Shown here: in pieces, positions 365 to 47,672 of the stretch | How the letters are laid out: each line of letters opens with the position of its first letter | Numbering within the stretch: position 1 is the first letter of the stretch | DNA from: a virus | Direction: 5' to 3' (one strand) | Length of the DNA stretch: 53,261 bases | Virus record (IMG/VR): IMGVR_UViG_3300031687_000019 | Span: 1-53,261 of that record | Program-made: the position numbers and the translations under genes | Notes under the pieces: model-generated | The model's input: the letters and a program-made list of their open reading frames with translations, nothing else | What the model was told of the DNA's origin: nothing | Database searches by the model: none

Positions 365-397
365 GTAGCTTTCTTGTAATTTGGGTAATAATATATA
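365..397 (+). promoter_or_regulatory. Family A promoter for the gene at 421
   Basis: GTAGCTT at 365-371, 20 nt, then TATATA at 392-397, with GGGTAATAA just upstream of the hexamer. The GTAG element and the 20-nt gap match the copies at 1679, 7287 and 18525. This is the most diverged of the family: it has GTAGCTT for GTAGTTT and GGGTAATAA for GTGTAATTA. The first start codon follows 23 nt after the hexamer. Confidence 0.5.
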
Positions 398-710: not shown

Positions 711-1649
711 ATGGCTAGATTAATAAGTTATCCAACCATTTCCACAATAGCATTAGGGGATTTGTTCCCTGTTACTGATATGTCTGATGTTGGGAAGCCG
801 CTAAAGAACGTTACGGCTACTAATTTACTCAGCTTTGTTGAAACTAATGCTGGTTTATGGAAAAAAATTCCAGGAGGGATAAATTATTCTGAGGGTAATG
901 TAGGTATTGGGGTAACTGCATTCACAGGATATTTAGAGGTGCTGAAAGTGAACATAGAAGACACCACTACTAGAGGACTACGCATTCAACTCGAAAAACA
1001 AACTACTAGTGCCGGAGGAGCCACCGCCAACGTGTATGGGGTAAGTACCTACGTAAAAGCAAACTCTACGGAAGCACTTTCAAACGCTCAAGCCTTATGG
1101 GGCAAGGCGGAACATATAGGTTCAAATACTTGTGACTTTATAGTGGGAACATCTGCAAGAGCACAGCATAACGGCTCAGGGGATTCAAATGGTGTTTATG
1201 GGGTATTTTCTGAGGGTGCAGTTATAGGAACTGGTGTTAGCACACAACAAAACATTATAGGTACGTACAATACAGCAAAGCTAGACAACACAAATGCAAC
1301 GGCAGAAAAAATGTATGGTGCATATATCTATGCAGTATTAAATGCCGGTACCGTTAGAGCTCGCTTGGTAGTAATGATCCTGGATTTTGATGACATCGGA
1401 ACAGGGGTTGTATCCGGGGACTTCGAATATTTAAGAATAGAAAACAACGTCCCATCTGCTGTGGGAGGTACAGCAAGGGCAATAAACTCTTTATCAACTT
1501 TGCCTTCTGAGTTTGCGGGTTCAGTTCAATCAGCAGGATCCATCAATACAGCAATAGCAGAACATGCAGACAATGCAGCGGCAATTACAGCAGGACTTGT
1601 AGTGGGTACCCACTACAGAACTGGAGACTTGTTGAAGATAGTTCATTAA
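711..1649 (+). CDS. Probable tail fibre or appendage protein
   Basis: 312 residues with no signal peptide or membrane segment. The body is rich in Gly, Ala, Thr, Asn and Val, consistent with a beta-rich fibre shaft; GNVGIGV near residue 65 is typical of phage appendage proteins. The last 30 residues, including AAAITAGLVVGTHYRTGDLL, resemble the common C-terminal module of marine Bacteroidetes phage tail and fibre proteins (recalled, not searched). The start has the AAAATTATGG context shared by many genes here. It lies far from the main tail module, beside chaperonin genes, and may be one of their clients. Host recognition is an inference. Confidence 0.6.
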   Translation: MARLISYPTISTIALGDLFPVTDMSDVGKPLKNVTATNLLSFVETNAGLWKKIPGGINYSEGNVGIGVTAFTGYLEVLKVNIEDTTTRGLRIQLEKQTTSAGGATANVYGVSTYVKANSTEALSNAQALWGKAEHIGSNTCDFIVGTSARAQHNGSGDSNGVYGVFSEGAVIGTGVSTQQNIIGTYNTAKLDNTNATAEKMYGAYIYAVLNAGTVRARLVVMILDFDDIGTGVVSGDFEYLRIENNVPSAVGGTARAINSLSTLPSEFAGSVQSAGSINTAIAEHADNAAAITAGLVVGTHYRTGDLLKIVH

Positions 1650-1678: not shown

Positions 1679-1711
1679 GTAGTTTTTTTAAATTACGTGT
1701 AATTATATAAT
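1679..1711 (+). promoter_or_regulatory. Family A promoter for groEL-groES
   Basis: GTAGTTT at 1679-1685, 20 nt, TATAAT at 1706-1711, preceded by CGTGTAATTA. The block CGTGTAATTATATAATA is identical to the one at 7304-7320, with the same distance to GTAG. The groEL start codon lies 13 nt downstream of the hexamer, so the leader is very short. Confidence 0.75.
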
Positions 1712-1724
1712 AAAATTTAATCTA

Positions 1725-3263
1725 ATGAGTCAAATAGTAAAAAAGTTTAGCTTTGGAAACAAAGGTAGAGAAAAAGTATTTAAGGGTATTGAAACCCTAA
1801 CTGAAGCAGTGGCTTCTACACTAGGAGGTGGAGGTGAATGTGTTATTTTTGAAAATGCGCAAGGTGTGCCCATGATAACAAAAGATGGGGTTACTGTCGC
1901 GGAGCTAAGTGTTCTTTTGGATCCTGTAGAAAACATGGGGGCTTCTTTAGTTAAGCAAGCCGCTAGAAGAACAGTTGCGGAAGCAGGGGATGGGACTACA
2001 ACATCCACAGTGCTAGCTCACGCTATATTAAAAGAATTTGATAAATCCAAAAGTAAATTCACCAGCAGGGAAAAACGCGACGCTATTAGTAAAATAGTTG
2101 ACAAAACTTTAAAGCACTTAGATAAACAAGCAAAACCTGTTAACGGGGGCATGATTGACGAAGTAGCTACTATATCTACAAATAATGATGAAGAGCTTGG
2201 TAAATTAATAGCTGATGCATATAGAGCCGTGGATTTAACCGGCGTTGTAATGATGGAAACATCCCAAGACGGCAACACAAGCATTGAGGTGGTTGAAGGA
2301 GTACAATATGAAAAAGGTTTTACCAATAATCATTTTGTAACCAATGCGTCTGCAAATACAGCGGAATTAAATAATCCCAAGATACTACTTGTTGATTCAG
2401 CCGTAGATACCATTAGACAAATACAAACGATACTGGAACATGTAATTAAGAATAACACCCCCTTATTAATTGTAGGGGATGTTGATCCCAAAGTTGCGGC
2501 TGCCTTAGCCATGAATAAAAACAAGGGGTCTATAAAAATAAATATAATTCCCGCACCTACCCACGGTGTAAATAGAAAAGAAATATTTGATGACTTAGCC
2601 CTATTGACAGGGGCCACAGTTATAAGCGAAAGCTTAGGAGATGATCTAGACCTAATAGATCTATCGTGCTTAGGCACTTGTGTAAAAGCAGTGTCAACAT
2701 TTAGAGATACGGTATTTCAAATAGACGAAGAACAATCTGAGGAAGTTCAGGCTATTATTAACAACATTAAAAAGCAATTGCTAACAGAATCTCTTGCAGG
2801 CAAAGTAATAAAGCTTGAAAAAAGATTAGCAATGCTCGCTGCTAAGCTAGCAATAGTAAAAGTAGGAGGAAATTCAGATGTTGAATTAAATGAAAAGAAA
2901 GATAGAGTTGAGGATGCAATATGCGCTACTAAAGCGGCTATCAAAGAAGGTGTGGTTGCAGGTGGAGGTATCGCGTTGATTAACGCGGCCAAAAGCATTA
3001 AAGCAAAAAATTCTGCGGAAGAATTAGTTTTAGAAGCGCTATTCTCTCCATATAATACAATAATGAAAAATGCGGGCCTAGAGTTAAGGGACATCGACAA
3101 AAAGAATTTCGGGGTTAATGTAGAGACCGGGAAAATGGTTAATATGTTTACAGCAGGTATCATAGATCCTGTACTAGTTACAAAGTCGGCTTTAAAAAAC
3201 GCCGCTTCAGTTGCTTCGACTATATTGTCAACTAACTGTGTTATGTCTAATGTAAGAGAATAA
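1725..3263 (+). CDS. groEL: Phage-encoded chaperonin GroEL (60 kDa, Cpn60)
   Basis: A 512-residue group I chaperonin, which folds client proteins inside a ring cavity using ATP. The nucleotide loop GDGTTT is at 88-93, and the catalytic aspartate of RVEDA is at residue 397, matching E. coli D398. VVEGVQYEKGF opens the apical domain and GVVAGGGIAL the second equatorial half. The apical segment usually written GFGDRRK reads THGVNRK. The protein stops at SNVRE and lacks the Gly-Gly-Met tail of bacterial GroEL (E. coli has 548 residues). It has its own family A promoter and is followed 1 nt later by groES. All visible active-site residues are intact, so it is probably functional, likely for capsid or tail folding. 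Confidence 0.95.
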   Translation: MSQIVKKFSFGNKGREKVFKGIETLTEAVASTLGGGGECVIFENAQGVPMITKDGVTVAELSVLLDPVENMGASLVKQAARRTVAEAGDGTTTSTVLAHAILKEFDKSKSKFTSREKRDAISKIVDKTLKHLDKQAKPVNGGMIDEVATISTNNDEELGKLIADAYRAVDLTGVVMMETSQDGNTSIEVVEGVQYEKGFTNNHFVTNASANTAELNNPKILLVDSAVDTIRQIQTILEHVIKNNTPLLIVGDVDPKVAAALAMNKNKGSIKINIIPAPTHGVNRKEIFDDLALLTGATVISESLGDDLDLIDLSCLGTCVKAVSTFRDTVFQIDEEQSEEVQAIINNIKKQLLTESLAGKVIKLEKRLAMLAAKLAIVKVGGNSDVELNEKKDRVEDAICATKAAIKEGVVAGGGIALINAAKSIKAKNSAEELVLEALFSPYNTIMKNAGLELRDIDKKNFGVNVETGKMVNMFTAGIIDPVLVTKSALKNAASVASTILSTNCVMSNVRE

Positions 3264-3264
3264 T

Positions 3265-3525
3265 ATGAAAGCAATAGGTAGAAACATAATAATAAAAAAG
3301 TTAAAAGAAGGTATAACTGAAACTGAGGGCGGTTTGCTCTTAGCCGAAAGTCACAGAGAAGATATCCGATACGTAGAAGCTACGGTTGTATCAACAGGTA
3401 GCGAATGCGATGGTATTAAAAAAGACGACGTCATATACTACGATAGACATGCCGGCCATAAGATTGAGATAAATCGGAAGACACTCCATGTTATAAAGAC
3501 AGGAGATGTAGTGTTTGTTTTATGA
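3265..3525 (+). CDS. groES: Co-chaperonin GroES (Cpn10)
   Basis: 86 residues, the lid that caps the GroEL ring. MKAIGRNIIIKKL matches the first Cpn10 strand, TETEGGLLLAES is the mobile loop with the hydrophobic GGLLL tripeptide that docks on GroEL, and KTGDVVFVL is the final strand. A roof-loop counterpart is present around YYDRHAGHK. The intact GGLLL argues that it partners the adjacent GroEL. It starts 1 nt after the groEL stop and overlaps the next gene by ATGA, so the three are probably translationally coupled. Confidence 0.92.
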   Translation: MKAIGRNIIIKKLKEGITETEGGLLLAESHREDIRYVEATVVSTGSECDGIKKDDVIYYDRHAGHKIEINRKTLHVIKTGDVVFVL

Positions 3526-7286: not shown

Positions 7287-7319
7287 GTAGTTTTATAAGA
7301 TTTCGTGTAATTATATAAT
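7287..7319 (+). promoter_or_regulatory. Family A promoter for the secreted-protein gene
   Basis: GTAGTTT at 7287-7293, 20 nt, TATAAT at 7314-7319, preceded by CGTGTAATTA. It matches the groEL promoter at nearly every position that is not plain A/T. The start codon follows 29 nt after the hexamer. Confidence 0.75.
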
Positions 7320-7347: not shown

Positions 7348-7692
7348 ATGAAAAATCTAATTATTGCATTATTTATTACGCTAACATCATTTGCAGCAAA
7401 AGCACAAGAACAGTTTAGTGGGATTTGGCAAACCGAGGATTCTAACTATTTAAAAACTATACTAGCATCGGACTATTCAGTATTGCAGTGTTTTAACACT
7501 TCATTTAAAGAATACAATGTTATAACAGAAACAATTGTTTTTGAAAGCAAAAACAAATTTACCACGGAATTATATAATCCAGATAATGGATACCGTGTTA
7601 CAATAGAGTACACATTAATAAACAAAGATTCAATTTCTAGTAAATACACCGGTGATGTTACCGGAGTTTACGGAATAAAACGATTATATTAA
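7348..7692 (+). CDS. Secreted or periplasmic small protein
   Basis: 114 residues with a clear signal peptide: MKNLIIALFITLTSFAAKA, cleavage before QEQF, the AxA-Q pattern common in Bacteroidetes. The mature part starts FSGIWQTEDSN and alternates hydrophobic and polar residues to the end (GVYGIKRLY), suggesting a small beta barrel or lipocalin-like sheet. There is one Cys, so it is not disulfide-rich. A promoter lies directly upstream, unlike most neighbours. A phage protein sent to the host periplasm could act in superinfection exclusion, envelope change or lysis. I cannot choose among these. Confidence 0.7.
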   Translation: MKNLIIALFITLTSFAAKAQEQFSGIWQTEDSNYLKTILASDYSVLQCFNTSFKEYNVITETIVFESKNKFTTELYNPDNGYRVTIEYTLINKDSISSKYTGDVTGVYGIKRLY

Positions 7693-9300: not shown

Positions 9301-9528
9301 ATGGAAAGTGTTATAAGAAAAATTAGTATCGGGGCTGACTATAAAAACGAAGCAATGCATTACTCTGTTAAACAGACAGTTTACGGCGGTCACGAAATTT
9401 CTCATATAATGTTTGAAGAGTCTGATAATTCTTATAATATATTTATTAAGAAGGTAGATGAGATAATGCCATGGAAGAAGTTTAATTCTAACATGGCTAT
9501 ATCCGTTGAATATGACCTAGAGTATTAA
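9301..9528 (+). CDS. Conserved small phage protein (SVIRKISIGADYK)
   Basis: 75 residues: SVIRKISIGADYKNEAMHYS, then QTVYGGHEISHI, then WKKFNSNMAISVEYDL. I recall this pattern from a small conserved protein of uncultured marine phages and other Bacteroidetes phages; its role is unknown. Its stop overlaps the next start (TAATG), linking it to the double Cpn10-like protein. Confidence 0.7.
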   Translation: MESVIRKISIGADYKNEAMHYSVKQTVYGGHEISHIMFEESDNSYNIFIKKVDEIMPWKKFNSNMAISVEYDLEY

Positions 9529-10133
9529 TGCGAAGTATATATGATTTTATCATAAAGCCGGTAGGCAAAAGATATGATAACGAAGTTAAGGTTGGGGAGC
9601 ATACCCTTGTAACAAATAGCTCTATAGAAAGTTTTAAGCATGTTAATAATATCGCTGAAGTAATAGAAACACCCGTTGCGTTTGCGACTCCTATTAAAAA
9701 AGGAGATTTAATCGTAATACATCACAACGTTTTTAGAGTGTTTTATGACATGAAAGGAATTAAAAAGAACAGTAGGTCGTTTCTAAAAGACGGCTTATTT
9801 TTTTGTAGCATTGACCAAATATATTTATACAAGAGGAATAAAACTTGGAAATCATTTGGAGATAGATGTTTTGTTGCTCCTGTCAAAAATAAAGACATTT
9901 TAAGCAGCCAAAAAACCGCTGATCTTATTGGTATACTAAAAATAGGTAACAGCTCCCTAGAGAGCGCTGGAATCAACCCAGGCGACATAATAGGATTTAC
10001 CCCGAATAGCGAATGGGAATTTGTTGTGGATAATCAAATTATGTATTGCATGAAATCAAATGATATTGTTATAAAGTATGAACTCGATAGAAACGAAGAG
10101 GAGTATAATAGCCGCTGGGCACAAAGCAATTAA
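9528..10133 (+). CDS. Tandem Cpn10 (GroES-like) double-barrel protein
   Basis: 201 residues with two GroES-type halves. Half one (about 1-105) runs IIKPVGKRYDNEVKV, then IAEVIETPV, TPIKKGDLIVIHHNVFR and SIDQIYLYK, which match strand 1, the central strands and the last strand of GroES. Half two (about 115-190) runs RCFVAPVKN, LIGILKIGNSSLESAGINPG, DIIGFTPNSEWEFVVDNQ and MKSNDIVIKYE, which again match. Neither half shows the GroES mobile-loop GG-hydrophobic tripeptide clearly, so it may not cap GroEL conventionally. Two fused barrels recall chloroplast Cpn20. It sits next to terminase, not next to groEL. The fold call is by eye. Confidence 0.7.
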   Translation: MRSIYDFIIKPVGKRYDNEVKVGEHTLVTNSSIESFKHVNNIAEVIETPVAFATPIKKGDLIVIHHNVFRVFYDMKGIKKNSRSFLKDGLFFCSIDQIYLYKRNKTWKSFGDRCFVAPVKNKDILSSQKTADLIGILKIGNSSLESAGINPGDIIGFTPNSEWEFVVDNQIMYCMKSNDIVIKYELDRNEEEYNSRWAQSN

Positions 10134-10350
10134 AGAATTAGTAAAGGTAGCAGAGGAAAAGATCGTTGACTCAGAGGAAGATATATCCGCTGACAGACTT
10201 AAAAATGCTGCCGCTACTAAAAAGCTTTGTATACTAGATGCTTTTGAAATATTAAACAGAATACAGGAAGAAGAAAATATGATTGCGGATGCAACTAATA
10301 CTTCGGATAAACCTGCGTTTAAAGGCTTTGCAGAGGGGAGATCCAAATAA
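10078..10350 (+). CDS. Probable small terminase subunit or TerS-like protein
   Basis: 90 residues, all helical: KRSIIAAGHKAIKELVKVAE, then ADRLKNAAATKKLCILDAFE, then RIQEEENM. The order just before, and overlapping, the large terminase start (TAATG) and the small, helical, basic nature fit a small terminase subunit that recognises DNA for packaging. The sequence resembles a conserved protein in that position in marine phages. Its first 56 nt overlap the upstream gene in another frame. The role is inferred from position. Confidence 0.65.
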   Translation: MNSIETKRSIIAAGHKAIKELVKVAEEKIVDSEEDISADRLKNAAATKKLCILDAFEILNRIQEEENMIADATNTSDKPAFKGFAEGRSK

Positions 10351-12560
10351 TGGCTTACCAGCAACAATTATACAGTATAGTCAAAGACTATATTAGGCCC
10401 CAAGCAATTAAGAAAAAAAACCGATATGCAAAATGGGAATACGGCTATAACAAAGAGCACGATGTTGTAGTTATAAGCAGGACCGGCAAAATAGGAGATA
10501 TATATCTAATAAGTGGAGTGCACATTGCATTGCCGCTATTACAAGATAAACCTGACAAAGGTATAAATAAGTGGAAAGCCACTGCCTATCCAAAAGAATT
10601 AAGTAAAATAAAAAGTGAAGCAGATTGGATCAAGTACCCAGATGCTTTTAAAGAAAAATGGTATGGGTATATTGACGGGGAGTTTAACAAGCGTGAGGAA
10701 GGCTTTTGGTTTTGTAATCAAGATAAGCTTACTTACATTACTGGTACTCACTACATGTACTTGCAGTGGTCCAAGATTGACGTTGGGCAACCTGACTTTA
10801 GGGAATCAAACAGATTATTCTACATATTCTGGGAAGCTTGCAAAGCAGACAGCAGATGCTACGGTATGTGCTACCTTAAGAATAGAAGATCGGGATTTTC
10901 TTTCATGGCTTCCGGCGAGACCGTTAACCAAGCAACAATATCTTCGGATGCTCGATTTGGCATATTGTCCAAATCTGGACCCGATGCAAAGAAGATGTTT
11001 ACAGACAAAGTTGTACCAATATCGGTTAACTATCCATTCTTCTTTAAACCAATCCAGGATGGAATGGACCGTCCTAAAACAGAACTCGCATACAGAGTTC
11101 CCGCTTCAAAATTTACAAGAAGAAAACTTGACGCCAACGCGGTACCAGAAGAGATCGTCGGGCTCGACACAACGGTCGATTGGAAAAACACGGGGGACAA
11201 CTCATACGATGGGGAAAAACTAAAACTATTGGTACACGATGAAAGTGGCAAGTGGGAAAGACCAACTAATATACTTAACAACTGGCGAGTAACTAAAACT
11301 TGTTTAAGATTAGGTAGTAGAGTTATTGGTAAGTGTATGATGGGATCAACATCAAACGCTTTAGATAAAGGTGGTAAAAACTTTAAAAAATTATACGATA
11401 GTTCTGACGTAACCAATAGGAATAAAAATGGCCAAACAAAAAGTGGTTTATATAAGTTGTTTATTCCAATGGAATGGAATTACGAAGGATTTATAGATGA
11501 GCACGGATGGCCCGTATTTGAAACACCTAGAAAAAAAACAGAGGGGCCTCATGGAACACCTATTGAGGAAGGTGTTATAAATCATTGGGAAAATGAAGTT
11601 GAAGGTTTAAAAGACGACCCGGATGCACTAAACGAATATTACCGTCAATTTCCAAGAACAGAGCAGCACGCTTTTAGAGATGAATCTAAGCAATCTATAT
11701 TTAACTTAACAAAAATATATCAGCAAATAGATTATAACGAAGAGCTAAGAAACAATACAATGGTTACTCAGGGTAATTTCCAATGGAAAAACGGTATCAA
11801 AGATACAGAAGTAATATTCTATCCTAACAAAGACGGTAGATTTTATATTACATGGGTGCCTAATCAAAATCAACAAAACAATATAATAATAAAAAATGGT
11901 ATTAAATATCCAGGAAATGAGCACATGGGTGCCTTTGGTTGCGATAGCTACGATATCAGTGGTGTCGTTGGTGGCGGCGGCTCTAACGGAGCTTTACATG
12001 GATTAACTAAATTTTCAATGGAGGATGTACCTCCAAATCATTTCTTTTTAGAATATATTGCAAGACCTTCAACAGCTGAGATGTTTTTTGAAGATGTATT
12101 AATGGCTATGGTATTTTACGGAATGCCAATACTTGCGGAGAATAACAAACCAAGATTGCTCTATTATATAAAAAGAAGGGGATATCGAGGGTTTAGTATC
12201 AATAGACCAGATAGAACTTACAATAAGTTATCAGTAGCCGAAAGAGAAGTAGGGGGAATACCTAATTCAAGTGAAGATATAAAACAAGCACATGCATCCG
12301 CTATTGAAACCTATATAGAAGACTTTGTAGGCCAAAAAGTAGATGGTTACGGAGATGTTTATTTACAAAGAACATTACAAGATTGGGCTAAATTCGATAT
12401 AAACAACAGAACAAAACACGATGCATCAATAAGTTCAGGGCTGGCATTAATGGCTTGCAATAAGCACAGGTACACACCTAGAGCAGCTACACAAAAAAAA
12501 GTGTATGCTTTAGGCTTTAAAAAATACAATAACGAGGGAGCTACTTCAAAAATAATATAA
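10350..12560 (+). CDS. terL: Terminase large subunit (packaging ATPase/nuclease)
   Basis: 736 residues. The motor pumps DNA into the prohead with an N-terminal ATPase and cuts it with a C-terminal RNase H-like nuclease. The Walker A position reads LKNRRSGFS (177-184), lacking the usual GK[S/T]. Walker B is LKLLVHDE (291-298), and the coupling motif is MGSTSN (331-336). GCDSYD (530-535) supplies the first nuclease acid, with further acids near ED at about 583. Large phage terminases with Arg/Lys earlier in the loop are known, so the deviant P-loop need not mean loss of function. Overlaps its upstream neighbour by TAATG; portal follows 3 nt later. Confidence 0.9.
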   Translation: MAYQQQLYSIVKDYIRPQAIKKKNRYAKWEYGYNKEHDVVVISRTGKIGDIYLISGVHIALPLLQDKPDKGINKWKATAYPKELSKIKSEADWIKYPDAFKEKWYGYIDGEFNKREEGFWFCNQDKLTYITGTHYMYLQWSKIDVGQPDFRESNRLFYIFWEACKADSRCYGMCYLKNRRSGFSFMASGETVNQATISSDARFGILSKSGPDAKKMFTDKVVPISVNYPFFFKPIQDGMDRPKTELAYRVPASKFTRRKLDANAVPEEIVGLDTTVDWKNTGDNSYDGEKLKLLVHDESGKWERPTNILNNWRVTKTCLRLGSRVIGKCMMGSTSNALDKGGKNFKKLYDSSDVTNRNKNGQTKSGLYKLFIPMEWNYEGFIDEHGWPVFETPRKKTEGPHGTPIEEGVINHWENEVEGLKDDPDALNEYYRQFPRTEQHAFRDESKQSIFNLTKIYQQIDYNEELRNNTMVTQGNFQWKNGIKDTEVIFYPNKDGRFYITWVPNQNQQNNIIIKNGIKYPGNEHMGAFGCDSYDISGVVGGGGSNGALHGLTKFSMEDVPPNHFFLEYIARPSTAEMFFEDVLMAMVFYGMPILAENNKPRLLYYIKRRGYRGFSINRPDRTYNKLSVAEREVGGIPNSSEDIKQAHASAIETYIEDFVGQKVDGYGDVYLQRTLQDWAKFDINNRTKHDASISSGLALMACNKHRYTPRAATQKKVYALGFKKYNNEGATSKII

Positions 12561-16134: not shown

Positions 16135-17607
16135 ATGAGTTTATTACCACAATTTGGGGCTATTGTCCCTTCACAATCACAGCAAATACTTAACACTAAC
16201 TACCTACAATGGACCGCCAATGGGGGAGCTGGTGCAGTACCTGCTAATTTCGCTGACTTCGCTCAGCAGTATTTACCAGAAATTTATGAAGCAGAAGTAG
16301 AGCGTTATGGAAACAGAACGTTAGCTGGATTTCTAAACATGGTTGGCGCTGAAATGCCAATGACTTCTGATCAAGTTATTTGGTCTGAACAAAATCGTTT
16401 GCATATTGCTTATGACGATTGTACTTACGCCGGAGGAGCACCTACTGTATTAATTATAGGAGGGGGCGCTACCGCGCAAAACGTAATGTCTATTAACGAT
16501 ACAGTTGTTCTTTTGGACACAGTAACAGGAACAGAAGCTAAGGCTGTTGTAACCGCTACTGTACCTGGAGCGTCTGGTGTTGGAAGTGTTACTCTTCAGT
16601 TTTACAACGGAAACGTATTAAACACTGCTGGATCTGTATTCACATCTGGTGCTATTAAGGTTTTCGTATATGGATCTGATTACTCTAAAGGTACCACTAT
16701 TGGTACGGGAGCTGGAAATTCAGCTGCTAGAGTATCTGTAGAACCTGTGCTGACACAGTTTTCAAACTCTCCAATCATTATTAGAGATCAATATGTTGTA
16801 TCTGGATCAGATACCGCTCAGATCGGTTGGGTAAATGTAGCAACGGAAGACGGAACTGATGGATACTTATGGTACCTAAAAGCAGCGTCTGAAACTCGCT
16901 TACGTTTTCAAGACTACTTAGAAATGGCTATGGTAGAAGGAGAATTAAATACAAATGCAGGGGCAGGTGCTTATCAGGACCTACAGCAGCCAGGAACACA
17001 AGGTTTGTTTGCAGCTATCTCGGATAGAGGTAATGTACAAACTGGATTCACAGCCGCTAACGGACTAACTGAATTTGATGCAATTCTTAAAAACCTAGAT
17101 ACTCAGGGGGCAATTGAAGAGAACATGTTGTTTTTACAACGTCAAACTGCTTTGGACTTTGATGATATGCTAGCTGCGATTTCTAGTGGACAAACTGGAG
17201 GAGTTGCTTATGGTTTATTTGAAAATTCAGAAGACATGGCGCTTAACTTAGGATTTAGTGGGTTCCGTAGAGGATCTTACGATTTCTATAAGACAGATTG
17301 GAAATACTTAAATGATGCGTCTACTCGTGGAGGAATCACTGGAGTTAATTCAATCGAAGGTGTATTAGTACCAGCTGGAACATCAACTGTTTACGATCAA
17401 ATTTTAGGAACAAATATCAGACGTCCATTTTTGCACGTACGATACAGAGCTTCTCAAACTGACGACCGTAGAATGAAATCTTGGTTAACAGGATCTGTTG
17501 GTGGAGCTAGTACTTCAACTCTTGATGCAATGGAAGTAAACTTCCTATCTGAAAGATGTTTAGTAACGCAAGCTGCTAACAACTTTGTACTATTCAAAGG
17601 AATCTAA
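16135..17607 (+). CDS. Major capsid protein
   Basis: 490 residues. It starts MSLLPQFGAIVPSQSQQIL, has LPEIYEAEVERYGNRTLAGF (the N-terminal helix region) and ends in EVNFLSERCLVTQAANNFVL, a pattern typical of HK97-fold capsid proteins of marine Bacteroidetes phages. It follows the scaffold and is the last gene before a strong UUCG-loop terminator, as expected for a very abundant transcript. Codons look more uniform than in flanking genes (impression only). Confidence 0.85.
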   Translation: MSLLPQFGAIVPSQSQQILNTNYLQWTANGGAGAVPANFADFAQQYLPEIYEAEVERYGNRTLAGFLNMVGAEMPMTSDQVIWSEQNRLHIAYDDCTYAGGAPTVLIIGGGATAQNVMSINDTVVLLDTVTGTEAKAVVTATVPGASGVGSVTLQFYNGNVLNTAGSVFTSGAIKVFVYGSDYSKGTTIGTGAGNSAARVSVEPVLTQFSNSPIIIRDQYVVSGSDTAQIGWVNVATEDGTDGYLWYLKAASETRLRFQDYLEMAMVEGELNTNAGAGAYQDLQQPGTQGLFAAISDRGNVQTGFTAANGLTEFDAILKNLDTQGAIEENMLFLQRQTALDFDDMLAAISSGQTGGVAYGLFENSEDMALNLGFSGFRRGSYDFYKTDWKYLNDASTRGGITGVNSIEGVLVPAGTSTVYDQILGTNIRRPFLHVRYRASQTDDRRMKSWLTGSVGGASTSTLDAMEVNFLSERCLVTQAANNFVLFKGI

Positions 17608-20769: not shown

Positions 20770-23700
20770 ATGGCACAAGAAATTAAAAACACATTTCTAA
20801 AATCCAAGATGAATAAAGATCTTGACGATAGAATATTGCCTAACGGCGAATATAGAAATGCTCGGAATATATCAGTTGGTAGATCTGAGGATAACGATGT
20901 TGGTGCTCTAGAAAACGTAATTGGGAACAATTTAGTTGCTGGTACCGATATTGAATCAGGATTAACCATTATAGGAATTAAAGAAAGCAATTCTTTAAAT
21001 CAACTTTTTGTATTTCTAACGGACTATAAAGATCCAAATCCCCTCAACCCCACTAACGCACCTACTACTTCAAAGCATTATATTTATTCGTATAATAATA
21101 CAACAGGAGCATATACTAGATTAGTGCAAGGGGAATTTTTAAATTTTTCGACTACAAATAGAATACTAGGTATAAATTTAATTGAAAATTTATTATTTTG
21201 GACAGACAATAGAAATCAGCCTAGAAAAATAAATGTTAATGTAGCAAGAGCTTTTACACCAGGTGGTTTATCTACTGTTAGTGGCGATTATTATACGGAG
21301 GAACACCAAATATCTGTTGCAAAGTATAATCCGTACCAAGCTATAGATCTTTACAATAGAGTTAATTTAAAAGTAAGATCAGGAGCAACAACGACTACTT
21401 TCACTTTAGAAGATACGAGTAGAGCAGAGCTTATTGAATTTATAGGAGCAACAGTTGTTTGCACAGAAACAAACCCTCCAACGCAAGGCGTTAATTTTGT
21501 TGAGGTTGTTAGCATTACTGATTCTTTCAGCTTACCTAATATTGTAACTATAACTGTTTCGCCGGCAATGCAAGCGGCCCCTGCGGTAGGAGATTTTGTT
21601 TCTCTTATACAGTCTACAATGACTAATAAAAACAACGATGCCCAGTGGCCTGGGGATCCGGATTATTTAGAGGACAGATTTGTTAGGTTTAGTTACAGAT
21701 TTAAGTTTGATGATAACGAATACTCTTTAATGGCTCCTTTTACGCAGATAGCATATATTCCAAAACAAAAAGGGTATTTTATTAATGGGGACGAGGACGC
21801 AGCTTATCAATCTACTATAGTTGGATTCATGGAAAACATGGTTCAAAATATAAGTTTAGTTATACCTTTGCCCGCATCTGCAAGTAAAATAATAGCTGAC
21901 TATAAAATTAGCGGAATAGAAATATTATTTAGGGAAAGCGACGGTCTTGCGGTAAAAGTACTTGAAAAAATTTCTGCAAATGAAATTTCAGGAGCGAGTG
22001 GTATAGATAGTTATTACACATACGAATATCAATCAAGAAAGCCATATAGAACTTTACCTGAAGCTCAAACAGTAAGAGTGTTTGATAAAGTGCCTGTTAG
22101 AGCCTTTTCTCAAGAATCAGCGGGTAATAGAATTATATACGGTAATTTTAGAGATCAGCATACTCCTCCTGCAAATATAAATTATAATTGTAGAATAACT
22201 AAAAAGTCTACAACTGGAGCATATAATAATTGGATAGAGTATCCTAATCATTCCGTAAAAAGAAATAGAAATTATCAGGTAGGATTTGTTTTAGCAGACA
22301 AGTTTGGAAGACAATCTCCAGTTTTGCTTTCATCCGTGGGATCGGGTAGCGAAAATAATGGTACATTTTATTCTGGGTCTACAATATACAGCCCTTATGA
22401 TTTACTAAAAACAGATACGGATGTAGATACTTGGTTTGGAGATGCAATACAAGTATTAGTAAATTCACCTATTGAATCTGAAATAGATAGTGCCGCAGGA
22501 ACACCTGGTCTTTATGCTTTAAAGCAACAAAATGCCTCCACCGGAGAAGGTTTTGCTATCACAGCAGGTCTTTCGGTCTCAGGCGCTTCACCTATAACAA
22601 ATAGTACTTGGACGTTCTTTTTAAAAGACACTGTATATCCTAACAACGTTAATATACCTGCTGTAGGCGATTATTTAAGAGGTGCTCGTCAAGACTTTGT
22701 TAAAGTTACAGCTATAACAAACCCTACTTTAAATCAATATATTGTTGTCACGGACGGCAGAGTAAGTGATACCTATTTAAGAACCTTGGAGTTATCCGCT
22801 AGCGCACCGGATTTAAAATTTGCTTACACCATAAACGATTTAGGGTGGTACAGCTATAAGATAGTTGTAAAACAAACCGAACAAGATTACTATAATGTTT
22901 ATTTGCCAGGAATACTTAACGGATACCCTGGACAGAGTGCCGCTGGGGTGGCGGAAGGACCTTTTCCAACAGACGAGGTAAATCTTACTGCCCATACTGT
23001 TTTATTTAATGACAACATAAATAAAATTCCTAGAGATTTAGCCGAGGTTGGTCCTGATCAAAAACAATTTAGAAGTTCCGCAACTCTTTACGGTGTTGTA
23101 TCTAATACAATGATTAATGTATCAGGAACTGGTACTGCTTCCAATACACAATATTACCCGAGGCTTCAGTCCATGGGCCCAAATGCTATTTCGCATACAT
23201 CGACAGCTATTGCTGCAGCAGACGAATTTGATATGGCTTTTACAGATCTTTCTTCAACAACCGGAACCACTGGTATTGTAGGGGGTGATAATGGAAATAA
23301 AGTTTTTTATCAAATAGATACAAAGCCATTAGTAGCAAGGATATCCACCACGGAAAAACCAATAGGGCAAAAAAATATCACAACTGGAGCGGGAACTCCA
23401 TACAATATGCTTCCTTATCTATCTGTCTATGAAACAGAGGCAGTGGAATCTCTTTTAGATATTTATTGGGAAACCACTTCATCTGGATTAATCGTTGATC
23501 TAAATCAAGATGTGGCTTCAACAAATGTTGGTGTAGTTGGTTTTGAAAACCTCAACTGGGAATTTAAAGAAGACACTGTACAAAATCAAGCTGTTACTCC
23601 TTCGTATTTTAGTGCTATAAATAATGAAGGAGATCCTTATTTGGGAGATTTAACGCCTTCTTTAACCAGTATAACAAACGGAGATAATTTAGAAAACACT

Positions 23701-25746
23701 GATTTTGATATTATAAAAGGAATTGCAGGTACTGTTAATGAAGGAAAATTTCAAATTATATATACAAAAGCTGAATCCCCTATTTATGAAGCAGTCAGCC
23801 CTACAAGGGATGTTTATTCCTTTCAAGTAACTCTTACCCCCCCAACTGGGGAACCTTTCGTAATACAGCTTAATGGTGTAGAAGGAGGTTTTGGGGCTTT
23901 AGAAAACATTCAGCCAACAATAAACCAGCCCGGCAATATAACTAACGCTACGCCTTCCACGGCAACGTTAATATCTGTGAGCGATATTGATGGTTTATCT
24001 CCTAAAAACGGTAGTGCTACAGCGGCTGGTGAGAGAACAGGCCTCCGGTTTTTCTTAAGAAAAAACACAAGTGTAGCCGGTAACTCTCTTCCTGATAATT
24101 GGGAAATGAATGAGACCACCGGAAAATTAACCCAACTTACCCCAAACAATGAGTTTGAGGGCAACGGGTTAGCTACATACAATGTAAGATTAACAGTAAC
24201 TGATGCCTTCGGATCAATTACTTCACCTCTTCAGTCTGAAGGATATTCTGCTCTTAGGACGGAAGTAAATTTTAGTATAACACTAAACCCCACTCCATTA
24301 AACACAGGGGCAAAAACAGTCCTTGCGAATTGCGTAGTAAATGGAGGAGGAACTTTTACAAACAACTTACCTACTCAAATATTTCAAGCTAATTATGATG
24401 CATTATTTTCCAATGCTGTAAATGGCATTGTACAGACCCTGCCGGGTGGTGTATTTGGACATTGGAAATGGGGAAGCCCTGACAATAGCCCTCTTGGCAT
24501 AGGCGGTATCAAAAGAGGGCAAAGCGTAACTAGCTGTATTTATTACATAGGAAAGAGTGACCCTTTAGTGGAAGGCAGCGGCGCTAGCAATGAGATACTT
24601 AGCACAAATAAGGGGCTTAATATAAATTTCACTCCTGCCAATAATGACTCTATACCTACGTTTTATCACAAAATAGGTACAGATTCCCATACAAGCGGTG
24701 TAATACATTTTACAATCAATACTTTCTCTCCTAGTAGATTTCAGCAAGTGCCTAATGTATTTGCGGTTCCAGCAGCAAGGTTTTACTACAGACAACCAAC
24801 AGCTGACGACTCAAACCCAGATTGGATACAATTACAAAGAAGTCAAGAAATGAACCAAGTAGGTTCTTCAGGGCCGGATTTTACAGTTTCCCCTAAAAAA
24901 GACGGACCCGCTTTGGTAGAAACTTTTTTGGCCTCTTCCCAAAACACACCATCTTCAGAAGTTACGGTAGATCGAACTATAAGTAATTCACAAGACCAAA
25001 GGGGTGTCTGGGTGCAGACAATGAGAGCATTTGATTTTAATGATTTATATGATTCTAATGCTAGTGGGGCTAGTTCAGCTGCGGGTATTGAATACGCAAT
25101 AACTCTTTTCGGACAACAACAAAATAAGCCTCATTCAAATGCACAACCACCAGGCACAAATAATGGTACTGTGAGATCTTATGTAATAGCGGACGATTTG
25201 AACTTTCCCACCTGTGCAGTATGGCAAGCTACAAATCTTTACACTGCAAATGGAGGAGTACCTGGCAAATTGTTTAAGTATGACACTAGCACTACTGGTA
25301 CCGATAGCCCCACGGCTTGGAGATACATAGACAACGATACTCAGCCAACTCACACCTATAGATTTGCTAGAAGCCCTTATGGTGATTACGTGACTGAGTT
25401 ATACACAAATGCTACAAGTAATGTTTTGTTTATACCCGCAGCAGAAAACCAGAAATGGATAAACATTAAATTAGATAGGGGCCTTTTAAGCCCTGTTCCA
25501 AATCAGTATAATAACTTGGTAGATACCGATGTTTACGGTAACACCGTTCCAGGTCAAAATACTATAGGGCAGGATCTTCAATTTAATGTAGGCTTTTCAA
25601 CTGTCGCAGGTAGAAAAATACCTAGCGGGTATGCTGAAGTTGGAGTAGCCGGTGTGAGGGTATTTGAAGAAGAAAGCTTGCAGTACAATCATTTACAAAA
25701 CTACAGAACAAAGGGAACTTTAAGAGTAGCTAAACCACTCAATTAA
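20770..25746 (+). CDS. Large tail protein, muzzle-like, with cadherin-like domain
   Basis: 1,658 residues. It opens KNTFLKSKMNKDLDDRILPN then GEYRNARNISVGRSE, an opening I associate with the tail 'muzzle' or stabilisation proteins of crAss-like and other podoviruses. WTDNRNQPRKINV near 145 supports this. A cadherin/Ig-like domain lies at about 1040-1175 (ISVSDIDGLSP, then YNVRLTVTDAFGS). The rest is beta-rich. It probably forms the bulk of the short tail nozzle and may touch host carbohydrate. It continues functionally in the next gene, which looks like the second half of the same complex. Confidence 0.7.
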   Translation: MAQEIKNTFLKSKMNKDLDDRILPNGEYRNARNISVGRSEDNDVGALENVIGNNLVAGTDIESGLTIIGIKESNSLNQLFVFLTDYKDPNPLNPTNAPTTSKHYIYSYNNTTGAYTRLVQGEFLNFSTTNRILGINLIENLLFWTDNRNQPRKINVNVARAFTPGGLSTVSGDYYTEEHQISVAKYNPYQAIDLYNRVNLKVRSGATTTTFTLEDTSRAELIEFIGATVVCTETNPPTQGVNFVEVVSITDSFSLPNIVTITVSPAMQAAPAVGDFVSLIQSTMTNKNNDAQWPGDPDYLEDRFVRFSYRFKFDDNEYSLMAPFTQIAYIPKQKGYFINGDEDAAYQSTIVGFMENMVQNISLVIPLPASASKIIADYKISGIEILFRESDGLAVKVLEKISANEISGASGIDSYYTYEYQSRKPYRTLPEAQTVRVFDKVPVRAFSQESAGNRIIYGNFRDQHTPPANINYNCRITKKSTTGAYNNWIEYPNHSVKRNRNYQVGFVLADKFGRQSPVLLSSVGSGSENNGTFYSGSTIYSPYDLLKTDTDVDTWFGDAIQVLVNSPIESEIDSAAGTPGLYALKQQNASTGEGFAITAGLSVSGASPITNSTWTFFLKDTVYPNNVNIPAVGDYLRGARQDFVKVTAITNPTLNQYIVVTDGRVSDTYLRTLELSASAPDLKFAYTINDLGWYSYKIVVKQTEQDYYNVYLPGILNGYPGQSAAGVAEGPFPTDEVNLTAHTVLFNDNINKIPRDLAEVGPDQKQFRSSATLYGVVSNTMINVSGTGTASNTQYYPRLQSMGPNAISHTSTAIAAADEFDMAFTDLSSTTGTTGIVGGDNGNKVFYQIDTKPLVARISTTEKPIGQKNITTGAGTPYNMLPYLSVYETEAVESLLDIYWETTSSGLIVDLNQDVASTNVGVVGFENLNWEFKEDTVQNQAVTPSYFSAINNEGDPYLGDLTPSLTSITNGDNLENTDFDIIKGIAGTVNEGKFQIIYTKAESPIYEAVSPTRDVYSFQVTLTPPTGEPFVIQLNGVEGGFGALENIQPTINQPGNITNATPSTATLISVSDIDGLSPKNGSATAAGERTGLRFFLRKNTSVAGNSLPDNWEMNETTGKLTQLTPNNEFEGNGLATYNVRLTVTDAFGSITSPLQSEGYSALRTEVNFSITLNPTPLNTGAKTVLANCVVNGGGTFTNNLPTQIFQANYDALFSNAVNGIVQTLPGGVFGHWKWGSPDNSPLGIGGIKRGQSVTSCIYYIGKSDPLVEGSGASNEILSTNKGLNINFTPANNDSIPTFYHKIGTDSHTSGVIHFTINTFSPSRFQQVPNVFAVPAARFYYRQPTADDSNPDWIQLQRSQEMNQVGSSGPDFTVSPKKDGPALVETFLASSQNTPSSEVTVDRTISNSQDQRGVWVQTMRAFDFNDLYDSNASGASSAAGIEYAITLFGQQQNKPHSNAQPPGTNNGTVRSYVIADDLNFPTCAVWQATNLYTANGGVPGKLFKYDTSTTGTDSPTAWRYIDNDTQPTHTYRFARSPYGDYVTELYTNATSNVLFIPAAENQKWINIKLDRGLLSPVPNQYNNLVDTDVYGNTVPGQNTIGQDLQFNVGFSTVAGRKIPSGYAEVGVAGVRVFEEESLQYNHLQNYRTKGTLRVAKPLN

Positions 25747-30222: not shown

Positions 30223-33200
30223 ATGTACGAGTACTTAATCAACAAAGAAACAGTAATTTTTGAAAACGAGAAAGACATGCTCGCGGGTCTTAAAGCCGCG
30301 GAAGAAGCGGAATATAGTATAGAGCTAATCAGAGATGATAGCATGGCTCAAAAATCAGAGGATACTTCCACGTTTGGCAAGCCTCAAAAAGAAGACACAT
30401 TTGTGTTTGGGAATCCTACCCCAGAAGAGCAGCTACAAGCTACTCAAAGCGAAGCGTCACAAGGAAATTTTACACAAGACCCTGTAGAGAGTGCGGATGC
30501 GGTGTCGGAAACTGTAGCACAAGACGATACGGAATTACCGCAGGAAGATACTTCTTTGGATTTACCAGAAGATGATTTTCAAATTAAATTAGATAAGCTT
30601 AAAGAACTTAAAGACTTTAGAGCTAAATCACCTAATGGCACTCTGCCAACAGATGGAGAGGCGTTTCAAAAGTTAAAAGATTACGACTATAATAAAGATT
30701 TAGGAATAATAAATACTGAAACAAGAGAAAAAGACCCGATAAAACAAGCTGAATTACAAGAATTTAAAGACTTTTCGCAAAACAGTTTAAACTCAGGTAT
30801 ACTACAGCAGCTAAATGTCAAAGGGGTTTCTTTACCAGCTAAAATACAAAACGGGCTTGAAAAAGAATATAGAAAGTATATAAAAGATAATTATGAAAAT
30901 TTTATTACTACTAGAACTGTTGCGGAGGTAGCTGTAAATATTACCAAAGATAAGCAAATGCCAACGGATTTTGCTATTGATCAAATTGTAGCGGAACAGT
31001 TGCAAGGGCTTCAAGAAAAGCAAAATAATGAAGAAAAAGAAAAAGAACAAATATTAGGTAGAGGTGTATCTAAGAACCCTACGCAAAAAGTAATTTCGGC
31101 TATAAAAGGTAGAATAGATAATGCCCCTGCTAACCGAAAACTATTTGGGGCAACAAGCCAAAGAATTGATGCTATTGATAGAAAACTAGCACCCAGTAAT
31201 CTTCTGCCAGACAACGAAAGACTTGCTTTAGAAGATGAAAGAAGAGCGCTAATTATTTCATCTGCTGAGGCTTTTGAAAGAATGAATCCTGCGGGATCCG
31301 CAAACCCATATAGGGACGGGTTTGAGTACGCTGGTAAAAGCAAAAAAAATAAACTAACTCAATTTTTTAATTTAGAAACGGGAGCGCAGGTAATGCCCGC
31401 GGAAGCTGCTTTAAGCAATGAAAAGCTTATTACCGCGCCTCCGGAGATGATTGCTGAAGCTGAAAGATTAGCCAAGCTGGCTAGAGAACCATTAAAAGCT
31501 GCTTTTTATTACAATGTTCTGAAAGAGACCCAAATAAACGAAGATCTTAAAAAAACATTTGATTTTAATCCAAACAAAGCTTACGAGCGGAGAGTTAATA
31601 AAGGCGAAGGAATCGGGCAAGGCCCAATGGATAAATCCCGTTTAAGAGTGTACCTTGAATCTAAGGGTTATACGCCAAATGAGAACGGCTTGTATACAAA
31701 TGTAACAGCTGAAGATTTATTACCTTTAAAAGACATGAACCTATCCGGAAGGTTTGGTATATTTAGTGAAGACGGCGGCTCTATATTAGACGACGCATTC
31801 GTCCCACGAGAAGGAGAATTGTCTACCCCAGCTATGTTTATACAAAATTTAGCGGAGGAAAGAATGCAAAACTCAATAGAGGGTAATGCACTAAACAGGG
31901 CTTACTTGTTTAACATCGATCCCGGCTCAGAAAAACTAGACGCAGGAGACTACGTAGCAACTTTTGCTAAAAAAGCCGCGGCCGGCACATTGGATTTACT
32001 GCCTGACAGCATGACTTCAAGGTACATTGATGAATTGCCTTTAACTCAGCGAGAAATGCTAGATAATTCCGAACAAATGTTAATGAATGCTGGTATTGAA
32101 ATAACTGAAGAGCAAAAAGAAAATTTTGCTAGAGGCTATGGCATGAAGGCGGTAGAACAACTAGGTGATTTTGCTCCTATGCTTATAAATTTTGCTTTTC
32201 TTAATAAAGCAGCAGGAGCCGCTGGAATGACTAGAATGATCGGTACTTTAATGAAGGGAGGGCCGAAACAAAAAGCAATGGGGCTAATTTTTGGCGCTTT
32301 ACTTGAAGAAGTAAAATTTGAAGCGGCCACTTATGGTGAAGCTAAAACACTAGGGGGTACTGGATTTTTTGCAGGGGGCCAAGTAGCTAATGCTTTACTA
32401 AAAGGAAGAATGGGTGCGTTGGCTAGAAAAATATTAGGAGGAGCCGTCGGAGGTACAGCAGGTAGTGAAACTGCTAAAGTTGCTGAATCTATGGCAGAAG
32501 ATCTTATGGGTGACAAAGATTTTAAAACCAGTATGCAAGAATATTACGGTGATATTGACGAAGTTACCGAGAGGCTAATAATTGACGGTATAGTTTTTGG
32601 TGTATTAGGTATGACCCATGCTAAAAAAATAGACTTCATGAAGCAAAGTGCTAAGCAAAAACTTTCTTCAAAGCTAAATCGAGAGATTAATGATATGTCT
32701 TCCATACTTACTCCAAAAGAACTTAGTAAAAAGAAAAACTTGAAAGCTGAACTTGATCAAGACCTAGCGCTTGATAACGAGGCGTTTAGCAAATTAGCTA
32801 TAGGAGATCAAATAAAAAATGCTAAAGCTGCTAAAGCTAGACTAAATGAACTAGATGCGCAACTAAAAAGTGATCCTTTTGAAGGCGGACTAACGTCTTC
32901 TGCAGCTAAATTTGAGATGTGGGCAGAAAGAGGAATGCTGGAAAATATAATTTCTCGCGTTGACGCAAATAAAATGGCGGCCAGAAAGTCAATAAACGAT
33001 CAAGCCAATAACTTTAAAGAAAGCATAGGCAAGCCTGATATGCCTGTTATTATAACAGAGAATGGTGAGGGGATGGCCCTTGGTAACAAGGGTGAATTTC
33101 AGTTTGAATCAGTTAACGGCAAGCCGTCCATAATAGTAGATTTATCTTTATACCAGCCTGGTGTTCTAAGTCAAGAGGGCTTTCATGCACAAATGGCATT

Positions 33201-36200
33201 TGCTTTTGGGAAAGGATCCGGACTTAAAAATGTAAGCCTTGAAGTTGCTAAAAAGCTAAGAGAAAAAATAGAACCCGCTGTAGAAAAAGCTTTAGCAAAT
33301 GAAAGATTTGTTATAAGCGACGGTGAAGGCGGAACTAAAAATGGTACATTTAAAGAAGCTATAGAGGATGCTTACAGGGAAGATCCCGCTAAAACAGATG
33401 AAGAATACGTAGCTAACATTATAGAATTTCTGGGTAATAAAAAATACAGAAACCTTTTACTAGATAATTCTTTAATGGGTAAGCTTAATAAAGCTGTAAG
33501 GAATACCGCTAAAGATTTAGGCATAAGTAAACAAAATGTTGATCAGAACTTAACTACAGCTGAACAAACATTAGACTTCTTATATACTTTATCAGATTTT
33601 TCACAGGGCCCCGGAAGAGGTAAGAAGAACTTTGCTGCGTTTAAAAACCTTTCAATTGATGGGACTAAGCTGGTTGATATGAAAACCAATACGGAAATTA
33701 CAACTGCAAAGGAAATTAAAAAAGACATTTCAGCATCTAAAGAAATAAAACCTGAAGAGAAAAAAGATATATTTTCAAAAGCAACAAGTGTATACGAAAA
33801 GATGATGGCTGACGGAGAAAGCATGGACCAAATCGGTGTGATGGTTGGATACGAATTTCAACCTCTAGTAAGATCTAAGCTGAGGTCTTATCTTACTGTC
33901 AAAGCGCTAGACAATGTTTCGGATCAAGTTATAGAAGACATCGTTTCAGATGTTACATTGGGTGATGGAAAAGGAGGTTCTCAAAATATACCAGGACTAG
34001 TTAAATCATACAAAGAAAGTGGTGAAGCCAGTTTAACTTCTTATATTTTTGGTCAATTAAATAACAAAATATTAGGCGCACTTCAACAACCAGCATATCG
34101 CGATATATTCAACACTTTTTCTATAGATGCTAATCCGGGTCAAGCTGAAAGACTAGCCGAAGGAGAAGGTTTAGGAGGCGAAGGGATTTCTGATGGGTAC
34201 GTAGATTTATCTTCACCCGAACAAAATGTTAGGATAAACAGGATTAAAGCAGAAGTTACGCTTAAATTGCCTGCTGAGTTAAAAGAAGATATTAATAGCA
34301 TAGGAGAGCGTCTTTTAATGTCTACCCCGTTAAAAAATCTTGAAGCTAAACAGGAAGGTAGTATAAAATTACCAAGCGGTAAGACAGCTGAAATCGTTAT
34401 ATCAAAAAGTGAGCAAGCCACTATTGAAATAGAGGGGGAACCCTCTGAAACTGTAAGAGTTAGATCTCCTAAAATTCTAGAAGAAAAATTCGGAACAGGT
34501 AAAAAGTCTTTTGTAAAAAAGCCTACTACTAAAGAAAAGCTTTATAGAGACGGCATTGACTTAATATACCCTAAGCTAGAAAAAGCTGTTGGGGGATTAA
34601 AAGACAATTATACTGCTACCCCGGAATACGAGGCTTTTGTAGACAATGCATATCCTTTGCTTAAAAATTATCTAAGCCAATCGGCTATTAACAAAAGATT
34701 TGCAGACTTCAAAGAACCAGCTATAGATAAAAAAACAGGCAAAATACTTAAGAAAAAAACTTCCGCAGGAGGAACCGTATTTACAAAAAAAGATGTAAAG
34801 TTAGCTGAGTGGAGAGGATACTTTTTAGGAAATGGTAGCAAGCGTATAGACGGGCGTAGACGATCTATAATAGAGGCATTTTCAGGAGAATTTGTATTTG
34901 ATTCTGTAATGGAATCATTATCTAATGAAGCCATAAGAAAGCAAATAGAATCAAGACAAGAAGATATTGGTGTTGAGCTACTAGATAATTTTGTAACAGT
35001 TATTGCTAAAGAGATAGATCGTGGCAACCCAGGGGTTATGGCATCTAAGATAATAAAAATTGCTAATGAGTTTGGTGTAGACCCTTACAACATGCTTTTC
35101 GATAAAAACAATAACCTAAGACCTATAGATGAAATAGCAATGATGCCTGGTGGGCCTGAGGCTTTAGGTGAATTATATAGAGGGGCACAAGCTGAGCTTA
35201 CAAGGCAACTACAAAACAGAGCGAAGGATCAGGAAATAAACACGGTAGATAAACTTGATAAATACTATAAGGACAACCCTGAGTTATTTACTCCTGAAAT
35301 GCGAGAAGCGGTAAAAGAAGTAAGAACATTGTCAATGGAAGATTTCAAAAATTTTAAGGATCAAACCGACTTTTTAGTGACATTATTTCCAGAAAAATTT
35401 TCTGAATTTTCTTTAGAAACCGTGGATGTTGGTGTGCCAAATAGTTTTTTATCTCAAATATTTTCAGCAAACTCTAGAACAAACAAGGCTACGGAAGCTT
35501 TTTACATTAATAAAGGTTTATCAGCGGAAGCCGCAAAGAAGAAAGCTACCATTAACAGGGAAGAGTTTACTAAAAAAATTAAAGGCAAAATAGGCACAAA
35601 CTATAATGCACCTGAAATGAAGCAAGCTAGAGAGGCGTGGGAAAGAGTAATGGAATTAGCTGAGGAAAACAATATTGATCGAAAAATTACTAATAAAAGC
35701 GTTAAAGTACAAAGAGGTATTACCATACTTAAGCAGGCAAAAGAGTATCAGGATGCAGTTGAAGCTATAATTTACTTGACAACAAATTTAACTACAAAGC
35801 AAAGAAAGGCTGAAATTAGCAAAATAGAGGGTTACGATGCTTACAAAAAGGCTATGGAATTACAAGTAGCTACATTAGATGCGATTTTACTTACATTTGG
35901 GGCAGCTTCCAAGATGGTAAAAGGAACTGCTGCAGAGCAAAAGGCTAGTAGAGATAATATATTCAAGGCTTTAGGCACTATGCTTTTAAACAACGATAAA
36001 GGGTTTAGAAATTTGTCACCTGAAATATACTACGAAATAAGAGATGGAGGTATAAAGGATCCTAAAAACGAACATTTGTTATCTAAAGCGGAATTTGCTA
36101 CTAGGGTTTTAACAGCATTTAATGAAGGAAGATTAAATACATTAGAAGAAGTAAAAGAAGTTTCTTCTGAATACGTTAGTTTAGTTGGGGAGCGAGCAGT

Positions 36201-41484: not shown

Positions 41485-41510
41485 ATTTTTTATTTATTTA
41501 TTTATTATTA

Positions 41511-42479: not shown

Positions 42480-42482
42480 TTT

Positions 42483-42653
42483 TTATAATTGTTTTAAATA
42501 ATTTTTAACTTCTATCCAATACGGTGTGTTTGTCGGGCAAAGCGTAAGTATCGTTTCTACTGTAACTATTGCATGGCCTAAAGCCGCCGGGTAGTGTTGA
42601 TATACTTCCTCGTGTTCCTCTATTAACAACTCTGCTTTTTTTTCTGGTCTCAT
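42483..42653 (-). CDS. Small protein (56 aa), unknown
   Basis: MRPEKKAELLIEEHEEVYQH, later TVETILTLCPTNTPYWIEVK, ending NYLKQL. Acidic helical N-terminus. It lies in the 327-nt gap between nrdB and the endonuclease, on the same strand, with the AT-rich leader AAAAAATATG. No family recognised. Confidence 0.6.
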   Translation of the reverse strand: MRPEKKAELLIEEHEEVYQHYPAALGHAIVTVETILTLCPTNTPYWIEVKNYLKQL

Positions 42654-42664
42654 ATTTTTTATTT

Positions 42665-44133: not shown

Positions 44134-44145
44134 AATTTAATTGTT

Positions 44146-47669: not shown

Positions 47670-47672
47670 AAT

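Follow-up and report, generated by a model that had tools for sequence, protein, structure and literature searches.

The chaperonin locus

The window, that is, the whole stretch of DNA analysed here, comprises 53,261 bases and comes from IMG/VR, where it is a virus record. It encodes a GroEL and a GroES that are practically contiguous on the plus strand, and the GroES open reading frame lies directly downstream of the GroEL stop codon. The positions of these genes and of the other features considered below are given in Table 1.

Table 1. Positions of the chaperonin genes and associated features in the window
Feature	Position	Strand	Description
Promoter-like element, second copy	365..395	+	Upstream of gene 421-705
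Promoter-like element, GTAGTTTTTTTAAATTACGTGTAATTATATA	1679..1709	+	31 bp, upstream of GroEL; putative promoter role
Phage GroEL	1725..3263	+	512 aa, 54.7 kDa; group I chaperonin without GGM tail; ring-ring contact segment shortened
Phage GroES	3265..3525	+	86 aa, 9.6 kDa; mobile loop with GGLLL; roof loop of 9 residues
Promoter-like element, third copy	7287..7317	+	Upstream of gene 7348-7692
Second GroES-like protein	9528..10133	+	201 aa; GroES domain in the C-terminal half, its mobile loop shortened; GroES-like barrel predicted by the structural model for the N-terminal half
Terminase large subunit	10350..12560	+	Downstream of the 201-aa GroES-like gene; identifies the relatives of the phage
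Virion structural protein, probable major capsid protein	16135..17607	+	490 aa, 52.4 kDa; suggested main chaperonin client

Family searches assigned the first protein to Pfam Cpn60_TCP1 (7e-51), an NCBIfam GroEL subfamily (4.9e-131) and PHROG chaperonin GroEL (1e-129). The PF00118 match covers residues 25-509, which corresponds to a full-length Cpn60. The protein scored above the cut-offs of two NCBIfam GroEL subfamily models and under the strict cut-off of TIGR02348 (425.8 vs 582.1 bits). The second protein matched Pfam Cpn10 (PF00166, 7.5e-11) and PHROG GroES (1e-12). The intact pair of the original prediction was thus recovered at exactly the expected open reading frames. GroEL contains GDGTTT (residues 88-93), ITKDGV (residues 51-56) and a VEDAICATKAAIKEGVVAGGG block from residue 395. 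The key ATPase positions compared with E. coli GroEL (T30, G32, K51, D52, G53, D87-T91, D398, G414, G415 and D495) are all kept. The motifs read earlier from the DNA, namely GDGTTT, the catalytic Asp equivalent to D398, and GGLLL in the mobile loop of GroES, are all present. So is THGVNRK in GroEL, at a place where 59 of 60 bacterial GroELs have GFGDRRK. The absence of the GGM tail also held: a GGM-type tail occurs in none of the 120 GroELs of the window's phage clade, against 73 of 79 bacterial proteins.

The dN/dS of GroEL against seven relatives is 0.03-0.14, and those of GroES and the 201-aa gene are likewise low. GroEL and GroES are both under purifying selection and are therefore maintained proteins. 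The pair is intact, phage-owned and divergent, and it is probably specialised.

The region upstream of GroEL

The 31-bp element is kept before GroEL in 29 of 36 close loci, even though the preceding gene varies among them. Its pattern was built from its own three sites, which makes the chance expectation of zero flattering. The element could plausibly be a phage promoter common to at least three units. The dedicated late promoter of the original prediction stands in part: a promoter-like element is conserved before GroEL, but it is not dedicated to this gene, because near-copies precede other genes (Table 1). A scan for sigma-70 promoters was uninformative (31 matches, 34 expected).

A run of AATYW pentamers (e.g. 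AATTAAATTAAATTATG; window 1709-1726) lies directly upstream of the GroEL start in nearly all relatives (L036-L285) and recurs before some other genes of the window, for example at 9040 and 27375. It is perhaps a translation-initiation leader that replaces a Shine-Dalgarno site. The sequence shortly before GroEL (window 711-1649; the preceding gene in L002-L035) varies among otherwise similar phages, and the variation has a sharp border at the promoter-like element. This pattern suggests a recombination hotspot or an exchange cassette.

Distribution and origin

The original prediction held that phage-encoded GroEL is best known from giant myoviruses. This view does not fit the databases. A protein search found related GroELs in 287 GenBank phage records, including podoviruses of 60-78 kb, and relatives from the ocean have been known since 2017, when Nishimura et al. 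described GroEL in the phi38:1 group, in 36 genomes from the ocean (PMC5332604). GroEL together with a short GroES was found in phi38:1 (72.5 kb), Calle_2 (73 kb), elemo (60 kb), Panino (77 kb) and MW202828 (61 kb). The Panino paper notes both proteins (PMC11590407), while chaperonins go unmentioned in the elemo paper (PMC7077304). The GroEL protein of phi38:1 has been detected by proteomics in infected cells, and it also appears in a second table, apparently of free-virion samples (PMC13288928). The terminase of the window is closest to that of podovirus MW202828 (62.7%), followed by those of elemo, phi46:3 and its kin, phi38:1, Calle and Gundel_1. A search of IMG/VR gave 43 near relatives, and GroES directly follows GroEL in all 140 IMG/VR loci with room to tell, among the matches listed by two further profile scans. 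These relatives and the earlier reports mean that the phage GroEL-GroES pair is an already known phenomenon. Many related flavobacterial phages carry their own GroEL-GroES, and the phage of the window is a marine one.

The GroEL tree included 60 bacterial GroELs and 18 representatives of the window's clade. The clade forms one group (SH-aLRT 99-100), and the Bacteroidota form a group of their own (100) without phages. It is extremely unlikely that the phage took GroEL from its host in recent times as an auxiliary metabolic gene raising the stress tolerance of the host. The tree leaves such a capture some room, since a sister position of the phage clade to the Bacteroidota GroELs is not rejected (p-AU 0.614), and placing the phages with Flavobacteriaceae, though disfavoured (lnL 46 lower), also escapes formal rejection (p-AU 0.0785). 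Against it, the best identity of the window GroEL to a bacterial protein is 42% (80 bacterial loci), the fully supported Bacteroidota group contains no phages, E. coli has the two genes in the opposite order (groS-groL), and the pair is part of a phage gene order that is itself conserved. Recent capture was therefore rejected as the likely origin. The phage GroELs constitute an old clade outside the Bacteroidota, and the window GroEL looks like an old phage gene; it is not a gene copied very recently from a single host lineage and lacking phage relatives. Long branches make it uncertain where phi38:1, phi14:2, crAss111, MW202828, elemo and Panino belong in the GroEL tree, and no claim made here rests on their placement.

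Ring contacts and the apical face of GroEL

The segment of GroEL that mediates ring-ring contacts (Asn457 to the Gly of YGYN) comprises 19-20 residues in 78 of 79 bacterial proteins. In the window's clade it is 13-16 residues long in 114 of 120 GroELs, i.e. 3-6 residues shorter, and 19 residues long in the other six; such counts within the clade go back to a single ancestral event or a few, not to 120 independent ones. In E. coli GroEL, the missing stretch contains Glu461, Ser463 and Val464. Arg452 is present in 74 of 79 bacteria, whereas most clade members have K, N, E, F or Y at this position. The single-ring mutant SR1 of E. coli GroEL carries R452E, E461A, S463A and V464A (PMC12696368), and the losses in the clade coincide with these positions. 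Judged from the alignment, the shortened segment and the lost Arg452 predict single rings.

An ordinary, phage-owned double-ring GroEL-GroES has a considerable, if lesser, chance of being the correct description. In such a system, the shortening would be neutral drift, other contacts would hold the rings together, and the machine would work as in the host but under phage control. The catalytic core and the GroES partner are indeed fully kept. Moreover, the GroELs of elemo and MW202828, which are 35-37% identical to that of the window, have full-length contact segments; double-ring phage versions are therefore likely to exist nearby. The six full-length segments within the clade also count against a single ring, and the chaperonin of phage EL, despite its rebuilt ring interface, forms double rings until ATP is bound (PMC7185714). 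Neutral drift is harder to reconcile with a loss that is concentrated at the ring-ring contact positions in 114 of the 120 proteins and that occurs together with a change of the lid suiting single rings. Taking both sides together, we consider the chance that the phage GroEL is a single ring to be even.

The apical domain, which faces the lid and the client, is also altered in the clade. Among the hydrophobic apical positions for GroES and clients, Leu234 is replaced by Gln (119/120), Tyr203 by His (99/120), Val263 by Ala (108/120) and Val264 by Met (116/120), while Phe204 and Leu237 are invariant. These replacements suggest a private lid co-adapted with the changed face of GroEL.

The GroES lid

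The predicted model of the phage GroES is a clear Cpn10, matching 1wnr_G with a Z score of 11.8 (75 residues aligned, 1.3 Å). Its roof loop has 9 residues, as in 62 of 65 clade members; the commonest bacterial value is 13, and E. coli has 18. The mobile loop has 25 residues vs 22, and its Gly-Leu-hydrophobic-Leu binding tripeptide is kept across the clade. The position of E. coli Ile25 is Leu in all 65 clade members, against 13 of 78 bacterial proteins. Single-ring E. coli GroEL otherwise stays locked to its GroES lid, but at 37 °C the two appeared to work together when the E. coli GroES carried I25L or I25F (PMC5575113). The occurrence of Leu25 in those 13 bacterial GroES proteins and of a 9-residue roof in 4 of the 78 speaks against a lid tuned to a single ring; the bacteria concerned presumably have double rings in most cases.

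The lid can also be compared with gp31 of phage T4, which serves phage morphogenesis. gp31 has no roof and a longer mobile loop than GroES, and these features are believed to provide the space that the 56-kDa gp23 needs (PMC6318259). The window GroES, with its shorter roof and longer mobile loop, changes in the same direction, a likeness that we do not take as membership in the gp31 family. Its model matches the gp31 fold (2cgt_O) with a Z score of 9.4 (64 residues aligned, 1.6 Å). In contrast to gp31, whose partner is the host GroEL, it has its own phage GroEL and is nearer to Cpn10 in sequence.

The characterised GroEL homologues of phages EL, OBP and AR9 raise the question of whether the lid is used at all, since they work without a co-chaperonin (PMC9598537). 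OBP and AR9 form single rings, and EL splits into single rings (PMC7185714, PMC9598537). By analogy, the window GroEL could be a lidless chaperonin that merely prevents aggregation, its GroES being a leftover or serving the host GroEL. We regard this as very unlikely. GroES is always present in the window's clade and lies right behind GroEL in every one of the 140 loci mentioned above, its dN/dS is low and its binding tripeptide is conserved. The proteins of EL, OBP and AR9 are also far more divergent: in phmmer comparisons, the window GroEL matched an ancestral FCB GroEL at 5.6e-107, whereas the phage chaperonin structure 6tmt gave 4.2e-26.

A predicted tandem GroES-like protein near the terminase gene

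The 201-aa protein encoded before the terminase matches PHROG GroES family 13932 (8.9e-24). When its family was searched as a profile, 77 of 78 bacterial GroES proteins were matched through the C-terminal half (best 1.6e-9), with the mobile loop gapped. The N-terminal half had no convincing sequence match; its alignment to GroES profiles by hhalign (12%) is too weak for a claim of homology. A sequence search of the PDB gave no credible match for the whole protein, but a fold comparison did. In the AlphaFold model (mean pLDDT 84.5), residues 1-185 best match the Cpn20 chain 7ekq_R (Z score 9.7, 158 residues aligned, 3.9 Å). The protein is thus modelled as a Cpn20-like tandem co-chaperonin. The match with chloroplast Cpn20, a tandem GroES, extends over both halves of the 201-aa protein. 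However, the two proteins share 13% identity, the N-terminal half is undetectable from sequence alone, and the mobile loop of the C-terminal domain is shortened. A GroEL-binding mobile loop was not found in the 201-aa protein: the C-domain loop is gapped against GroES, and the long loop of the N-domain is without the Gly-Ile/Leu-x-Leu motif. That the tandem protein acts as a chaperonin cap is possible but doubtful.

In the window, phi38:1, phi46:3, elemo, Panino and MW202828, the long GroES gene comes immediately before the terminase gene or no more than a few hundred bases ahead of it. Among the IMG/VR matches listed, it is present in 91 of 96 GroEL loci with room for it. Conversely, 73 of the listed loci of the 201-aa gene extend over more than 9 kb upstream of it, and 72 of these have GroEL. 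The remaining locus (L061) is on the contig of L031, where GroEL lies further upstream. A "chaperonin cpn10" has been listed among the core genes of the Pervagoviridae (PMC8776804). Two Pachyviridae records were compared: phi46:3 carries two GroES-like genes but lacks GroEL, and Gundel_1 carries no gene of either kind. Since phi46:3 has the long GroES in the absence of any GroEL, the long GroES is independent of the phage GroEL and is not simply its lid. The long GroES of phi46:3 (L049, 18805-19407) keeps a mobile-loop-like SLIYIPEDNKEK in the C-terminal domain, where the loop of the window's clade is shortened. No link between Cpn20-type tandem proteins and phages was found in the literature searched, most subscription journals being outside the search.

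The same three genes are present in Cellulophaga phage phi38:1 (Callevirus, Pervagoviridae) as GroEL gp005, Cpn10 gp007 and co-chaperonin GroES gp089. This podovirus resembles the window in that the long GroES is just upstream of the terminase gene and the contact segment is shortened. It differs in that its GroEL is on a separate long branch, Cpn10 precedes GroEL with one gene between them, the tripeptide starts with Met, the roof has 16 residues, and the loop in the C-terminal domain of its long GroES has stayed longer. Flavobacterium phage elemo (Elemovirus) and MW202828, podoviruses of about 60 kb, share with the window a GroES directly after GroEL, a short roof and a long GroES near the terminase gene. 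They differ in the GroEL contact segment described above, and MW202828 also has Ile at GroES position 25.

Possible clients

The original prediction proposed that the pair is specialised for the virion proteins of 3,066 and 1,658 residues. These are the two largest proteins of the phage, and the EL chaperonin has been reported to fold β-galactosidase, a protein that GroEL is unable to accommodate (PMC5934643). However, their masses are 341 and 181 kDa, and T4 gp23 (~56 kDa) already slightly exceeds the GroEL-GroES cage (PMC6318259). The two proteins are therefore unlikely to be enclosed clients, and the proposed specialisation is implausible in this form, though partial or domain-wise action on them is possible. 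A machine that exists for folding these giants is highly unlikely. The 52-kDa probable capsid protein would be a better client, and we see about equal chances for and against its being the main one.

The N-terminus of the 1,658-aa protein (window 20770-25746) matches the muzzle protein family of crAss-like phages (PF25731, 1.5e-11), which suggests a crAss-like tail part in a podovirus. The 3,066-aa protein (window 30223-39423) has no Pfam match, and the Pfam and PHROG searches gave nothing useful for it; residues 2108-2267 weakly match a PHROG polynucleotide kinase (2.5e-4). The minus strand of window 39763-50086 carries an early-type module with the large and small subunits of ribonucleotide reductase, thymidylate synthase, a MazG-like protein, a primase-helicase, an ERF recombinase and a sigma-70-like protein.

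Proposed mechanism and implications

It is very likely that the phage possesses its own folding machine for its own proteins. The phage would make a group I chaperonin to fold its virion proteins, with GroEL and GroES probably co-transcribed from one phage promoter. The two proteins would form an ATP-driven cage with its own lid, as expected from their family and the intact active site. With the shortened contact segment and the replaced Arg452, GroEL would most likely work as one heptameric ring. Leu in place of Ile25 in GroES may loosen the grip of the lid, so that a single ring could release it with no second ring to give the signal. Together, the shorter roof and the longer mobile loop may enlarge the chamber in the manner of T4 gp31, probably to fit the capsid protein of about 52 kDa. 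The tandem GroES-like protein, derived from the same fold, would probably be a helper or an alternative cap in head assembly.

A phage GroEL-GroES machine altered in its ring contacts and lid is the best overall explanation, and we judge it somewhat more probable than its negation. The complete combination, a natural single-ring GroEL with a true GroES lid tuned by the Ile25-to-Leu replacement and a second, tandem Cpn20-like co-chaperonin in head assembly, as a three-part system widespread in marine flavobacterial-type phages, is rather unlikely to be correct in every part.

A group I chaperonin that cycles with one ring and a lid has been argued for mitochondrial Hsp60, and in E. coli it has been reached by engineering only. 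A phage lineage with trimmed ring contacts, a rescuing lid residue and an always co-inherited pair would provide a natural case to test one-ring cycling. The second GroES-like gene appears to be a neglected core gene of the Pervagoviridae, and the system in the window may represent a second phage solution to the problem that T4 solved with gp31.
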